The notes under the pieces: generated by a model
What the model was told of the DNA's origin: nothing
What the model saw: the letters and a program-made list of their open reading frames with translations, nothing else
Databases searched by the model: none
Shown here: positions 5,219 to 21,407 of the stretch, one piece after another
How the letters are laid out: each line of letters begins with the position of its first letter
Numbering within the stretch: position 1 is the first letter of the stretch
Translations under genes and position numbers: made by a program
Assembly (NCBI RefSeq): GCF_015143595.1
Contig: NZ_WYEU01000001.1
Location: 1,178,001 to 1,242,000, forward strand
Reading direction: 5' to 3'
DNA from: Sneathiella sp. P13V-1
GTDB lineage: Bacteria; Pseudomonadota; Alphaproteobacteria; Sneathiellales; Sneathiellaceae
Length of the DNA stretch: 64,000 nt

Positions 5219-5827
5219 ATGAAATTCTGCTCAAGTCCTACCTCTCCTTTTGCCCGTAAAGCAATGGTGACTGCCCTTGAAAAGGGTGTTGATAATCAAT
5301 TGGAAATGGTCAGCCCGGATCTGACCGATGTTTTTAAAGGCATCAACCCATCCAATCCACTTGGTAAAATTCCAAGTCTTGAACTGGATGACGGCACAGT
5401 AATTTTTGATTCTATTGTGATCGCAGAATATCTGGACAGCATTTCTGATAGTCCCTCATTGTTTCCATCGGAACCAGCGGCTCGTGCCAAAACAATGACA
5501 TTGCACGCCCTTGCAAACGGGATGACAGATGCGGCTTTCACTCGTCGGTGGGGATCAACCATGTTGCCAGAAGACGAGCGCTCTCCTTCATGGAATGCCC
5601 GTCTGAAACTTGCAATTGATAAATCTTTGGATCAGCTGGAAGCTCAGATTGACGATTTCGCCGGTAAAGTAGATATTGCTGCCATCGCCATCGGGTGTGC
5701 GCTTGGGTATCTGGATTTCCGTTTCGCTGAAGAAAACTGGCGTGACGGTCATTCAAAACTGGCCGCATGGTATGAAGAGTTCGCCGCCCGTCCAAGCATG
5801 AAAGCCACGGTTCCACCGGAGGGCTAA
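5219..5827 (+). CDS. Glutathione S-transferase family protein
   Basis: Probable glutathione transferase of 202 residues; family members conjugate or reduce electrophiles with glutathione in the cytoplasm, and the substrate cannot be inferred. The N-terminal thioredoxin fold starts CSSPTSPFARK, where the Ser of the SPTSP stretch is in the position of the catalytic Ser/Cys. It is followed by the glutathione-binding NPLGKIPSL with its cis-proline, and the Glu/Asp-Ser region FDSIVIAEYL near residue 65. The C-terminal half (about 90-200) is the helical GST domain. I chose the ATG at 5219 because an in-frame TTG at 5192 lies inside the T tract of the upstream terminator. The MFS gene follows after 21 nt, so the two may be cotranscribed. 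Confidence 0.85.
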   Translation: MKFCSSPTSPFARKAMVTALEKGVDNQLEMVSPDLTDVFKGINPSNPLGKIPSLELDDGTVIFDSIVIAEYLDSISDSPSLFPSEPAARAKTMTLHALANGMTDAAFTRRWGSTMLPEDERSPSWNARLKLAIDKSLDQLEAQIDDFAGKVDIAAIAIGCALGYLDFRFAEENWRDGHSKLAAWYEEFAARPSMKATVPPEG

Positions 5828-5848
5828 TTCACGATATTGAGGGGGGAC

Positions 5849-7033
5849 ATGAAGCCTGCAAGTTTGATCACTGTTCTGTGTATTGCAGAAGTCCTGACCA
5901 TGACCCCCTTCGCCACCTTTCCGGCACTTCTTCCCTATTATTTTGAAGCGTGGCAGATCACTGGATCAGAAGCGGGCTGGGTCAACGGATCCTTCTTTTT
6001 GGGAATTACCCTGTTTGGGGTTTTTGCTTCCACTCTGACAGATCGAATTGACGCCCGTAAAATTGTCCTGTTTGGATTGTTTATGGCGCTTGTTGGTGCC
6101 ATCGGATTTGCTTTTTTTGCAGATGGATTTGTTACTTCTCTGCCCTGGCGCTTTATATCAGGGGCATCGCTGGCTTGCACTTACATGCCCGGTCTTCGGA
6201 TGCTGACGGATCGGTTGCAAGCAGCGTCTCATGCACGTGGGATTGCCTTCTACACCGCCTGTTTTTCAACAGGATCCGCGCTGTCTTTTCTTTTAATCGG
6301 ACAGGTGGAGACATGGCTTGGGGTAGAAGCGGCCGTAAACTCTGCCATATTCGGACCACCTGTTGCGTTAATCATGACGCTTCTTGTGACACGGTCCACA
6401 CCTCATCCCTCCCCAAGAGGGTGGCGGGAGCTTTTCAATTATCTGCCCGTCCTTAAAAACCGCAAATCCATGGGATATGTGGTCAGCTACTTCTGTCATT
6501 CGTGGGAATTGATGGCCATGCGGTCTTTCATCGTGGCGTTTCTGGCGTTTGCCGCGGTCAATAGCGCAGCGCCCGCTTGGATGGATGTAAGTGTTGTTGC
6601 GACCATTGTGATTTTTATGGGATTGCCTGCAAGTGTCATGGGGAACGAGTTGGCCCTTAAGATCGGACGAACACCTGCCATTCTCATTTTGATGATGACT
6701 GGATTTGCGCTTTCTATTCTGTTGGGCCTCTCCAGCGGATGGCCGTTTATGCTGGTGGCAGCCATCGCCATTCTCTACGGCACTTTCGTCACAGCCGATT
6801 CATCATCCATCACGTCAGGAGCTGTTCTGGCGGCCTCCTCGGATTCGCGGGGGTCCACCATGGCGGTTCATTCTTTCTTCGGATTTGCCGGGGCAATGCT
6901 GGGGCCGGTTGCCGCGGGTATCATTCTGGAAAGTGGAGGCGGGCATCAGGATGCCGGTGCATGGGCCATGGTTTTCATTTCCATGGGGGCGGTGTCCCTG
7001 ATTGGACCATTTGCCCTTCGAATGACACGTTGA
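5849..7033 (+). CDS. Major facilitator superfamily transporter
   Basis: Twelve-helix secondary transporter of about 394 residues in the inner membrane. Hydrophobic segments run through the whole protein, and the loop after helix 2 (TLTDRIDARKIVLFG) matches the MFS A-motif region, a D-R-x-x-R/K type signature. The overall layout resembles the drug-efflux/arabinose-exporter branch of MFS, but no substrate can be assigned. The ATG at 5849 is preceded by GAGGGGGG; an upstream in-frame TTG (5837) would place the Shine-Dalgarno inside the gene. The gene abuts the convergent xerC exactly, TGA on one strand meeting TGA on the other at 7033/7034, with no terminator between. Confidence 0.85.
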   Translation: MKPASLITVLCIAEVLTMTPFATFPALLPYYFEAWQITGSEAGWVNGSFFLGITLFGVFASTLTDRIDARKIVLFGLFMALVGAIGFAFFADGFVTSLPWRFISGASLACTYMPGLRMLTDRLQAASHARGIAFYTACFSTGSALSFLLIGQVETWLGVEAAVNSAIFGPPVALIMTLLVTRSTPHPSPRGWRELFNYLPVLKNRKSMGYVVSYFCHSWELMAMRSFIVAFLAFAAVNSAAPAWMDVSVVATIVIFMGLPASVMGNELALKIGRTPAILILMMTGFALSILLGLSSGWPFMLVAAIAILYGTFVTADSSSITSGAVLAASSDSRGSTMAVHSFFGFAGAMLGPVAAGIILESGGGHQDAGAWAMVFISMGAVSLIGPFALRMTR

Positions 7034-7966
7034 TCAGGATTTTGGGTGCGATTTGCGGTAAGTTTCCAGCAGCTTTTCCGTGTCCAGATCCGTGTATCGT
7101 TGTGTGATAGACAAGGACGCGTGGCCCAACAATTCCTGAATGGTTCGAAGATCGCCACCTGCGCCCAACAGATGGGTTGCGAAGCTGTGGCGAAGCGCAT
7201 GGGGAGTGGCTGTTTCAGGAAGACCCAGTTGCCGGCGCAGGTTTTGCAGTTTTTGTTGAACCTGCCGGGCACCTAAGCGGCCGCCTCTTTTCCCTCGAAA
7301 TAAGGGGTCCTCTGCTTCTTTTGAAAAAGGGAGAAGGGCAAGATGCTCTTCCATTGCGCTTAAAATCACAGGCAGGATGGGAACCAGACGCTCTTTACCG
7401 CCTTTCCCCACCAAAGACATGCTGTCCCCCTTCGGCCGATCTGAAATGTTGAGCGAAAGGGCCTCGTTAATGCGAAGGCCGGCACCGTAAAGCAGGGTGA
7501 AGAGGGCCACATCCTGTGCGATGACCCACTCATCGTCATCGGGGTTAAGCTCCAACGTCGCCAGCAGTTTTTTGCTATCCGCTTCGGTTAAGGGCCTTGG
7601 AAGGCTTGCCGGGATTTTTGGGGACCGCAGAGTTGAAAGGGCCGGGACGTGAATGATTTTGTCTTTTTCCAGTTTCTTGAAAAAGCTCTTTACGGAGGAG
7701 AGAACCCGTGCCAGAGAGCTTTGTGCCAGACCATCCCGTTTCCGCACCGCTAAAAAAGCACGAATGTCTGCGGCTTTTAAGGTGTTGAGATCCTCTAAGG
7801 AGAGTTCTTTCCCAAAATGACCGGATAGAAATCCCAGAAATTCTCGGACGTCTCGATCATAGGCTTCCAGCGTGTGGGGGCTGACCCTCTTTTCAAGGCG
7901 CAGCCAGTCTATCCATCGGACAAATGCCGCATCCAAAGTTGATGTCGAGGAGGCGGGTTCCGGCAT
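7034..7966 (-). CDS. xerC: Tyrosine recombinase XerC
   Basis: Site-specific tyrosine recombinase that with XerD resolves chromosome dimers at dif during division. The 310-residue protein has the N-terminal SAM-like core-binding domain (about 10-100, with RVSPHTLEAYDRDV) and the C-terminal catalytic domain. Catalytic residues are visible in order: Arg in GAGLRINEAL, Lys in GKGGKERLVP, the HxxR pair in HALRHSFATHLL, His in LLGHASL, and the nucleophile Tyr in ITQRYTDL near residue 290. Length is typical. The ATG at 7966 is chosen because a longer ORF start (TTG at 8035) would sit inside the upstream DUF484 gene, whose stop is 4 nt before this ATG. It forms an operon with DUF484, the usual alphaproteobacterial arrangement. 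Confidence 0.93.
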   Translation of the reverse strand: MPEPASSTSTLDAAFVRWIDWLRLEKRVSPHTLEAYDRDVREFLGFLSGHFGKELSLEDLNTLKAADIRAFLAVRKRDGLAQSSLARVLSSVKSFFKKLEKDKIIHVPALSTLRSPKIPASLPRPLTEADSKKLLATLELNPDDDEWVIAQDVALFTLLYGAGLRINEALSLNISDRPKGDSMSLVGKGGKERLVPILPVILSAMEEHLALLPFSKEAEDPLFRGKRGGRLGARQVQQKLQNLRRQLGLPETATPHALRHSFATHLLGAGGDLRTIQELLGHASLSITQRYTDLDTEKLLETYRKSHPKS

Positions 7967-18443: not shown

Positions 18444-19904
18444 TTGGATAACTACGTGCAACTTTTGGGTCGCTACGCAACATTGGACTCTTTCGCTGAC
18501 GGAACAGCAATCCGCAGGTTTTCCCTGCGTTTTGTCGATTCTGCGGTTGAGCGTGAATACAATGATGTCGCGATTGCAAAATCTATTGGCGTATTGCGGT
18601 TATCCCTGCTGTCAGCAATGCTGATTTACGCTGCATTCGCGTTATTGGATTATTACATCAGTCCAGATGCGTTTCAGTATGCCATCGCCATACGGTTTAC
18701 CACTACCATTCCTGTGATTATTACCGTCTATTGGCTGTCTTATACAAAATACTATGCGAAGATTGCGCAGGCTGGGGCGGCGCTTTGTATGCTGGTTTCG
18801 GGCCTCAGTATTATCTCAATGACGGCTTTCATGTCAGAGCCTGCAAATTATCTGTATTATGCAGGATTGACGCCACTGATTATCTTCTGCTGCTGTCTTC
18901 CGCCTACGCGGTTTATTTACGCAACGTCCGTAACGGGTTTCCTAATCGCGGCCTATCATGTGTCGGCGGTGATTGTGAACCCAATCCCCGGCCTGATCTT
19001 ACTGGCAAATGATTTCTTCCTGTTGACTGCTGCAGGCATGGGCATTTTTGCGGCCTATTTTCAGGAGTTGGCAGAACGCCGCGATTTTATGAATATGCGG
19101 ATGTTGGATAGCGAACGCAAGAAAAGTGATGATCTGGCAGACAAAGCCCAGTCAGCGAACCATGCTAAATCTGAGTTTTTGGCCATTATGAGTCATGAAC
19201 TGCGCACGCCGCTTAATGCAATTATCGGATTCTCGGAAATCCTTGAAAAAGAAATGTTCGGCCCGCTCGGGACGGAGCAATATAAAGAATATTCGCTGGA
19301 TATTAAGAATAGTGGCCAACACCTGCTTGGGATTATCAACGATATTCTGGATCTATCCAAGGCGGAGGCTGGTAAGCTCAACCTTCAGGAACAGGACCTT
19401 TCGCTGATCACTGTCATCAACTCTTCCTTGCGTGTTGTTCGCGACCGAGCAACAGAAAACGGTATTCGCCTAGCGTTTGATATACCTAAGGATGACATTA
19501 TTCTCTACGCAGATCCGCGGCTTTTATCTCAGGTTTTCCTGAACGTTCTTTCCAATGCCGTGAAATTTACACCTAAAGGCGGAAATGTCAGTATTGATGT
19601 GGATGTCAGTGAGAGCGGAGAGGTTGTCGTCTGCGTCAGGGATACCGGGATCGGAATTGAAGAAGATAATCTTGAAAAGGTCTTTGCTCCCTTTGTTCAG
19701 ATCGAAGGAAGCCTTGCCCGCAACTATGAAGGCACGGGACTGGGTCTTCCCCTTAGCAAGAACGTCATGGAGCTTCATCAGGGCGATATTCGTCTGGAAA
19801 GCCAGTTGGGTATGGGGACGATTGCGTATCTTACCTTCCCTGCCGATAGAAACAGATCAGCGGAGCATATGCCGCAGGAAGATGAACGTCTGCAAGCCTC
19901 CTAA
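18444..19904 (+). CDS. Membrane sensor histidine kinase, DivJ/PleC/PdhS-like
   Basis: A 486-residue histidine kinase. The N-terminal 40 residues are soluble (with FVDSAVEREYNDVAIAKS) and lead into six or so hydrophobic segments (about 50-210). The kinase core has the H-box FLAIMSHELRTPLNAIIGF (His near 250), the N-box FLNVLSNAVKFTPKGG, the G1 box RDTGIGIEEDN and the G2 box GTGLGLPLSKNVMELH. The stretch MFGPLGTEQYKEYSLDIK after the H-box, and HLLGIINDILDLSKAEAGK, match alphaproteobacterial kinases acting on DivK/PleD. Cell-cycle signalling is therefore a reasonable inference. No response regulator is adjacent. The start is uncertain: TTG at 18444 directly follows an in-frame stop, and GTG at 18456 is the alternative; neither has a strong ribosome binding site. 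Confidence 0.8.
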   Translation: MDNYVQLLGRYATLDSFADGTAIRRFSLRFVDSAVEREYNDVAIAKSIGVLRLSLLSAMLIYAAFALLDYYISPDAFQYAIAIRFTTTIPVIITVYWLSYTKYYAKIAQAGAALCMLVSGLSIISMTAFMSEPANYLYYAGLTPLIIFCCCLPPTRFIYATSVTGFLIAAYHVSAVIVNPIPGLILLANDFFLLTAAGMGIFAAYFQELAERRDFMNMRMLDSERKKSDDLADKAQSANHAKSEFLAIMSHELRTPLNAIIGFSEILEKEMFGPLGTEQYKEYSLDIKNSGQHLLGIINDILDLSKAEAGKLNLQEQDLSLITVINSSLRVVRDRATENGIRLAFDIPKDDIILYADPRLLSQVFLNVLSNAVKFTPKGGNVSIDVDVSESGEVVVCVRDTGIGIEEDNLEKVFAPFVQIEGSLARNYEGTGLGLPLSKNVMELHQGDIRLESQLGMGTIAYLTFPADRNRSAEHMPQEDERLQAS

Positions 19905-19905
19905 A

Positions 19906-19938
19906 GAAAAACCCGCTTGGAGAAGCGGGTTTCTTTTT
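19906..19938. terminator. Bidirectional terminator between convergent genes
   Basis: The stem AAACCCGCTT / AAGCGGGTTT has a GGAG loop and T-rich tracts on both strands (TTTCTTTTTT on plus, TTTTTCTTT on minus). It serves the histidine kinase from the left and the PilZ-methyltransferase from the right. Confidence 0.9.
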
Positions 19939-21407
19939 TAGCTTGGCTTGGTCACCATCAGAATGATGCAGTGACCGGTTTTATCTACAATGGTCTTCCG
20001 AACAGCATCTTCAGGAAGAGAGTTTGCCATATTCAGCATATTTTCTTCATCTCGGTATTCAAGCTGCCAGTCGGTGATCATTTCTACCTGCCACTCAAGG
20101 CTGCTGTCTGAATCATACATGCTACCAATCATCAGCGTGCCGCCCGGGTTCAGGTTTTTATAAAGGTCCTTAACCAGACGCGCGGCACGTTTATCTGTCA
20201 GATAATCGACCAGACCCACCGCATAGATCATGTCCTGATTATCCAGTTTCTTAAACAGATTTCCCGCTGCCAGAAACTCAAGGAAGGTGGCGTGTAAACA
20301 GTTTACAGTCGCTTTGCCATCAAGTTGCACCACTTGAGGGTAGGCGTTGTTGTAAGCATATGAAAGGGCGTCATCATCCTGATCGATCAGGGTGAAATTG
20401 ACGTTCACAGGCTGTGCATGCCCACGCAGGAAGTTGGAAACCTCTTGGGCAGGGCCGCATCCAAGGCTGGCGATATTGAACTGCTCAACGCCGTTATGTG
20501 CTGCATTGTTAACCAGTTCAGCGATCTTCTGCTTCACAAGTGTCATGCGCGTTGTGATAAACTCACCTGTAGATGTGCCAAGGCGGTGGCAGAATTTTTC
20601 GTAAGGGGTCTCCCCCAGCATGGCAAGGTTATAAGCATAATTCATCACTTCGAAATCACCCGGATAACCAAGTGGTTTTTCGTATGACCGTTTCCAGCTG
20701 GCACCAGGTGTCAGTTCTGGTGTGAGCGTCCGCTCTGTATATTGTTTGGCGGCTTTCATGACCTCCGGCTTATTACGGATTGTTGTCATGATCTCCATTG
20801 ATTTTTTGGAAATCTCGCGCCAGCGTTTAAGGGCATCCCGCTCGCATTCCAGAATGATTTCCTGAATCCGTTCTTCTCTTCGCGGGGCTTTGGCCGGCAT
20901 ATCATGTTCGACCTGTTCAAGTGTGGTTCGGACAGACCGGAGAAGATAGACAGCGTCTGAGATCACTGTTTTATATTCGGATGGGACCAGTGGAGAAATA
21001 TCCTTCATGCCTTCGCGCAACTGACGGCGCATGGCCAGATCATCATGCTGCTCCATCAGCCGTTGGATATCCAAATATCCTTTGGTCAGCTCGATCGCGA
21101 CCTTTTCCACGCTTTCATGGGCTTCGATACGCCGCACTTTGCCGCTTCCTGAGAAAACTTCCTCAGGTCCCAGCTTCAACGTTAGCGGAATATCTTTTTC
21201 AGGTGATACAGAAACCACATCTGAGGCAGGGCGGAAATAGCTCAGTCCACTCATGCTCATATCAAAAATTTCGAAATTGTCGTCATCAAGACTGATAACA
21301 GGAGAAATCTCCTGCATTAACGTAGAAGCCTTGAAACGTTCTGCGCGATAGAAGACACGTTTGCCTTCTCCCCCCGTGAGTTCTTCGTAATGCTTCATCT
21401 CAACCAC
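19938..21407 (-). CDS. PilZ domain-SAM methyltransferase fusion protein
   Basis: A 489-residue two-domain protein. Residues about 15-110 look like a PilZ domain: RVFYR fits the RxxxR motif and DMSMSG fits the DxSxxG motif that together bind cyclic di-GMP. After a helical, charged middle region (about 110-240) comes a class I methyltransferase with SLGCGPAQEVSNFL as the SAM-binding loop near residue 313, LIDQDDDALSYA as the acidic loop, and IYAVGLVDYLTD. The segment KPLGYPGDFEVMNYAY before it is characteristic of a family often labelled 3-hydroxypalmitate methyl ester (PhcB-like) biosynthesis; that label is homology-based and the substrate is unproven. Start is GTG 21407 or ATG 21398. It is transcribed alone, with a long leader and a bidirectional terminator. 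Confidence 0.78.
   Translation of the reverse strand: MVEMKHYEELTGGEGKRVFYRAERFKASTLMQEISPVISLDDDNFEIFDMSMSGLSYFRPASDVVSVSPEKDIPLTLKLGPEEVFSGSGKVRRIEAHESVEKVAIELTKGYLDIQRLMEQHDDLAMRRQLREGMKDISPLVPSEYKTVISDAVYLLRSVRTTLEQVEHDMPAKAPRREERIQEIILECERDALKRWREISKKSMEIMTTIRNKPEVMKAAKQYTERTLTPELTPGASWKRSYEKPLGYPGDFEVMNYAYNLAMLGETPYEKFCHRLGTSTGEFITTRMTLVKQKIAELVNNAAHNGVEQFNIASLGCGPAQEVSNFLRGHAQPVNVNFTLIDQDDDALSYAYNNAYPQVVQLDGKATVNCLHATFLEFLAAGNLFKKLDNQDMIYAVGLVDYLTDKRAARLVKDLYKNLNPGGTLMIGSMYDSDSSLEWQVEMITDWQLEYRDEENMLNMANSLPEDAVRKTIVDKTGHCIILMVTKPS

Follow-up and report, generated by a model that had tools for sequence, protein, structure and literature searches.

A conserved PilZ-methyltransferase fusion related to PhcB is paired with a convergent sensor histidine kinase in Alphaproteobacteria

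The window, a stretch of 64,000 nucleotides from the genome of Sneathiella sp. P13V-1, holds two genes that run towards each other, one encoding a methyltransferase with an N-terminal PilZ domain and the other a sensor histidine kinase. The methyltransferase gene (MT below, as is its product) occupies the open reading frame 19938-21407 on the minus strand, which comprises 489 codons; the true start is likely the ATG at 21398, giving a protein of 486 amino acids, because orthologs open with MKHYEEL. The protein has a PilZ domain at its N terminus, a class I methyltransferase domain at its C terminus and a helical linker in between. A stem-loop between the two stop codons is likely a terminator shared by the MT and kinase genes. 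The features of the locus are as follows.

19938..21407 (-): PilZ-linker-methyltransferase gene, listed at 489 codons, likely start 21398
20997..21362 (-): PilZ domain, about residues 16-137, with predicted strands at 36-109 and a predicted helix at 114-137
21336..21359 (-): region of R17, R21 and R24, RVFYRAER; R21 and R24 invariant, R17 in 25/36
21246..21263 (-): DMSMSG (residues 49-54), an instance of (D/N)xSxxG, whose D or N, S and G are kept in 36/36
21129..21131 (-): R93 in the barrel, basic and invariant in the ortholog alignment
20703..20981 (-): helical linker, residues 143-235, within the match to 3ocj and the PhcB-type homology
19941..20702 (-): SAM-dependent methyltransferase domain of class I (residues 236-489)
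20655..20678 (-): KPLGYPGD signature, residues 244-251, present as KPxGYxGD in PhcB-type and rhizobial relatives
20382..20384 (-): D342, invariant acidic residue in motif II (LIDQD)
18444..19904 (+): gene of the partner sensor histidine kinase, running towards the MT gene
18507..19121 (+): membrane sensor in the kinase (residues 22-226), with probably six helices
19149..19853 (+): kinase core made up of HisKA and HATPase_c (residues 236-470)
19909..19932 (.): stem-loop with T-rich flanks, lying between the stop codons, z -4.4

Comparison with its relatives marks the MT frame as a genuine, conserved gene: full-length orthologs occur in 24 of the 26 genomes of the order and in 35 of 385 Alphaproteobacteria, at 33-84% identity. 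The frame proposed by an earlier reading of the DNA letters (the sequence-only reading) is therefore real, and the two motifs singled out there, RVFYR and DMSMSG, are literally present. One genome (G005) carries the Sneathiella ortholog in two frames (query residues 3-61 and 66-488), a split that we ascribe to a frameshift or an assembly error.

Family profiles and the predicted fold both identify the N-terminal domain as PilZ. Searched alone, the window protein gave no match to Pfam PilZ (PF07238) even at E 10 and likewise no PilZ in NCBIfam; 32 of 36 orthologs matched Pfam PilZ (E up to 10; best 4.5e-5), two of them above the curated cut-off. AlphaFold2, run on the 36-row ortholog alignment that underlies the residue counts given here, returned a model with a mean pLDDT of 88, of low confidence at residues 1-21, in which barrel strands span residues 36-109 and a helix starts at 114. 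Because VIA results for the whole model were filled by the MT domain, the PilZ domain was folded and searched separately. Residues 1-140 predicted alone (pLDDT 83) formed a beta barrel with a C-terminal helix, and the solved structures closest to this model were PilZ proteins (VIA Z 8.8-10.6), including MrkH, Alg44, MotI, YcgR and MapZ, several of which were solved with c-di-GMP. The fusion of PilZ to a class I methyltransferase, put forward in the sequence-only reading, is thus borne out by the ortholog profiles, the fold and the structural match of the MT domain described below.

Conservation within the PilZ domain is uneven. Its mean column identity is 49%, and only eight positions are invariant in the 36-row alignment (Y7, L10, G12, R21, R24, S51, G54 and R93). 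Both PilZ motifs had been taken as intact, and this holds for DMSMSG, since position 49 is D or N and (D/N)xSxxG is kept in all 36 rows; it does not hold for RVFYR as a conserved pair, since the first arginine of the RxxxR that occurs in the window protein, R17, is kept in only 25 of the 36 orthologs. As R21 and R24 are invariant, they are probably the functional pair, which would make RxxR (21-24) rather than RxxxR (17-21) the working arginine motif. Certain PilZ domains fail to bind c-di-GMP, and the departure of R21/R24 from the canonical RxxxR makes the predicted binding of this ligand by the Sneathiella domain likely, not certain. GGDEF proteins are encoded in 34 of the 34 MT-carrying genomes examined, as compared to 276 of 385 in the class, which suggests that c-di-GMP is available where MT is found; the association itself is weak evidence, because GGDEF proteins are common in the class and the genomes are related.

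The MT domain gave sub-threshold matches to generic methyltransferase families in Pfam, and its matches to CheR were weak, below the cut-off and mostly over the generic SAM-binding part. In the 36-row alignment, the K, P, G, Y, P, G and D of KPLGYPGD are invariant. The best structural match of the model was 3ocj (Z 20.1, rmsd 4.2, 251 residues), covering residues 143-489 and hence including the helical linker. A search of PDB sequences with the single window protein gave no match, profile searches of the PDB gave weak ones (E 1.6 for 3ocj), and for two relatives no sequence link to 3ocj was found; the link is a structural one, resting on the predicted model. The 3OCJ structure is that of the Bordetella parapertussis ortholog of FmtB (BP2936), with a palmitate-like ligand occupying its cavity (PMC5426589). 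Overproduction of FmtB, a fatty-acid methyltransferase, raises methyl-ester fatty acids and that of a D147A/Y148S mutant does not, although its authors detected no in vitro activity and did not exclude an indirect effect (PMC5426589). By inference, D342 would be the counterpart of FmtB D147. Unlike the Sneathiella protein, FmtB lacks a PilZ domain and has no reported paired kinase, and its profile similarity to MT is weak. A domain matching the MT family also ends a polyketide synthase on an Enterobacter plasmid (L110:1652-4789).

Sequence profiles point to a second enzyme, PhcB of the phcBSRQ system of Ralstonia solanacearum. A profile of the linker and MT domain, built from Alphaproteobacteria only, found PhcB-type proteins of other proteobacteria (462-501 amino acids) at E 3e-41 to 2e-43, with matches mostly starting from the first linker positions, and the KPxGYxGD signature found in MT is common to them. 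We assigned the name "PhcB-type" from the order of genes in the operon, the protein length and a conserved R22, the R. solanacearum PhcB sequence itself lying outside the comparison. The operons concerned encode the methyltransferase, a kinase and then a receiver and kinase protein, which is the order phcB-phcS-phcR; positions given in PMC6989110 put the length of PhcB at 471 amino acids or less; and R22 of PhcB, mutated in that study, matches arginine 22 in a Paraburkholderia protein and is kept in its relatives. On this basis it is near certain that the linker and MT domain are related to PhcB; their homology to the PhcB-type proteins, which are of similar size, runs along their length. The kinship to enzymes making fatty-acid methyl esters that the sequence-only reading had suggested is upheld by this homology together with the FmtB ortholog as nearest solved structure, and by analogy with these enzymes the product of MT is probably a fatty-acid methyl ester.

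The resemblance to phcBSR extends to the adjacent membrane histidine kinase, whose sensor is related (see below). It does not extend to gene order: the Sneathiella genes are convergent rather than an operon, and no PhcR-type gene is adjacent. For these two reasons we class MT as a relative of the PhcB type and not as a member. A further difference is that the PilZ motif, largely kept in MT, is absent from PhcB-type proteins. Their N-termini, however, may represent a degenerate form of the same domain. A small profile of these N-termini matched the PilZ profile colinearly with a score of 28.9 (shuffled controls at most 15.6, reversed 18.8), and a multiple alignment agrees with the match, with (D/N)xSxxG degenerate; starting from one sequence, the match was not significant. 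The evidence that the N-terminal 110 residues of PhcB-type proteins (L137-L141) may form a degenerate PilZ-like barrel is thus moderate. The adaptive PhcB mutation R22C, which delays quorum sensing and lies outside the methyltransferase domain (PMC6989110), would fall within this putative barrel.

The convergent arrangement of MT and kinase, remarked on in the sequence-only reading, is near-universal. When the N-terminal 230 residues of the kinase were searched across the same 385 alphaproteobacterial genomes, a kinase ortholog was present in all 35 genomes with MT; in the 32 in which both genes lie on one contig they adjoin each other on opposite strands, and in the other three they lie on separate contigs. 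Genomes lacking MT gave no kinase-sensor match better than 6e-11. The families concerned are diverse, and the remaining neighbour genes vary between them. We conclude that MT and the kinase are very probably a functional pair. Correlations of 0.76-0.90 between MT and kinase distances were not used as evidence of pairing, because without a control gene they mirror species relationships only. No linked response regulator or PhcR-like gene was found at the locus.

The same reading had described the kinase as DivJ/PleC-like, and here the data disagree. The kinase core scores far below the curated NCBIfam cut-offs (DivJ, 202 of 1000 bits; PdhS, 198 of 2000 bits), a TorS model scores higher, and the N-terminal part is a membrane sensor of several helices with a distant relationship to the PhcS type. 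This sensor has no Pfam match of its own. Aligned by hhalign to a Paraburkholderia PhcS-type sensor, it scored 45 (E 1.6e-6, probability 90), as compared to 12-16 for shuffled or reversed controls, and it scored 158 against a kinase of Pseudanabaena. Of five other PhcS-type kinases, the sensor profile also found four (E 1e-5 to 3e-14). These profile comparisons indicate a remote but detectable relationship between the membrane sensor and that of PhcS.

Genome-wide searches with the sensor profile bear on how closely such sensors follow methyltransferases. In one PhcBS genome the sole match was the kinase adjoining MT, and in six rhizobial genomes the sole match was a sensor-GGDEF-EAL protein adjoining a related MT. 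The rhizobial methyltransferases (e.g., on Rhizobium etli p42e) are about 344 amino acids long and divergent from the sensor-GGDEF-EAL protein (L143, L146, L147, L151, L152, L157-L159; L109:1472-4771). Like the Sneathiella pair, they place a related MT beside a sensor of the same profile; unlike it, the MT lacks PilZ and the output is c-di-GMP turnover, not a kinase. Three genomes had stronger sensor matches with no MT of this type nearby, the proteins being a kinase, a nucleotide cyclase and a GGDEF protein (L153:4882-6420, MASE8-like; L154:4777-6093; L155:5205-6401). By these matches the sensor superfamily is broad, which counts against specificity for MT.

One genome (G081; L160:4463-5440(+), 5592-7190(-)) carries the same kinase family convergent with a PilZ-less MT of a different subfamily, which looks like an exchange of the enzyme with the receptor retained. 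Sensor and MT are thus the constant elements, and PilZ is an added layer. A convergent MT and kinase of the same kind, plus a response regulator, are present on a Pseudanabaena plasmid (L076:4394-7680). We set this MT aside as a PilZ-less pair, since its start lies directly behind a recombinase gene, so that 5' sequence may be missing.

We propose that MT is a PhcB-related fatty-acid carboxyl methyltransferase that would form, with the convergent kinase, a two-gene signalling module. With SAM as donor, the enzyme would methylate a fatty acid (perhaps a 3-hydroxylated one) at its carboxylate, yielding a diffusible methyl ester. Binding of c-di-GMP to the PilZ barrel would shift the barrel and the helical linker, which is presumed to bind the substrate, and thereby switch synthesis in one direction or the other. 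The membrane sensor of the kinase would detect the ester, and the kinase would then phosphorylate an unlinked response regulator. By analogy with PhcB and PhcS, we lean slightly towards the kinase sensing the product of MT. Taken as a whole, the explanation of a PhcB-like methyl ester synthase gated by c-di-GMP through PilZ, with its product sensed by the kinase, is tentative and falls just short of an even chance; for the complete chain from ligand binding to sensing, our confidence ranges from doubtful to nearly even.

Three other explanations have to be weighed. The same synthase-receptor pair could operate with a PilZ barrel that is structural or serves in protein docking, without c-di-GMP binding, as is probably the case for the degenerate barrel of PhcB-type enzymes. 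The canonical RxxxR is not kept, as this would allow; the PhcB-type N-terminus is seemingly the same barrel without the motif, so such a barrel can work without it; and one genome (L160) pairs the same kinase with a PilZ-less MT. Yet in a domain of 49% mean column identity, S51, G54, R21, R24 and R93 supply five of the eight invariant positions, and position 49 never departs from D or N, which is what a retained ligand site would show. We therefore consider a non-binding barrel unlikely. Alternatively, MT could modify an ordinary lipid or metabolite while the kinase answers an unrelated cue, the pairing reflecting co-regulation only. That FmtB has no known signalling role and that the sensor superfamily is broad are both compatible with this, but the pairing survives replacement of MT by a different subfamily, and related sensors, on PhcS-type kinases and rhizobial GGDEF-EAL proteins that differ in output, adjoin related MTs, so that this option appears improbable. 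Least probable, and to be given little weight, is CheR-like, PilZ-gated methylation of a protein carboxylate on the kinase or another receptor without any diffusible signal, for although the weak Pfam CheR matches, the tight pairing with a kinase and the inhibition of CheR1 by c-di-GMP via the PilZ adaptor MapZ (PMC6370697) would suit it, the CheR matches are below the cut-off and mainly over the generic SAM-binding part, the homology is of the PhcB type, and the FmtB ortholog that is closest in structure holds a fatty acid in its cavity.

MapZ-CheR1 of Pseudomonas aeruginosa resembles the proposed c-di-GMP-gated synthase in that c-di-GMP controls a methyltransferase through PilZ (PMC6370697); there, in contrast, the PilZ adaptor is a protein of its own and a chemoreceptor is the substrate, whereas the Sneathiella PilZ is fused and its MT is PhcB-type. 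The parts resemble PhcB/PhcS and MapZ-CheR1, but neither their fusion in one protein nor the strict pairing turned up in the open-access literature, a search of which gave nothing relevant on a PilZ-methyltransferase fusion or on a link between PilZ and PhcB. That c-di-GMP gates a quorum-signal synthase directly, with the paired kinase as receptor, and that PhcB shares ancestry with or descends from such a gated synthase after losing the motif, is a more doubtful proposition.

The usual link between quorum sensing and c-di-GMP is a receptor that alters c-di-GMP levels. If the proposal is true, a synthase bearing a c-di-GMP domain would reverse this link, so that the lifestyle state sets whether the cell signals. 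The two-gene module that would do so is compact, and it recurs in 35 of the 385 sampled alphaproteobacterial genomes. The findings also suggest a function for the N-terminal part of PhcB-type enzymes, so far unexplained and the site of R22C (PMC6989110).
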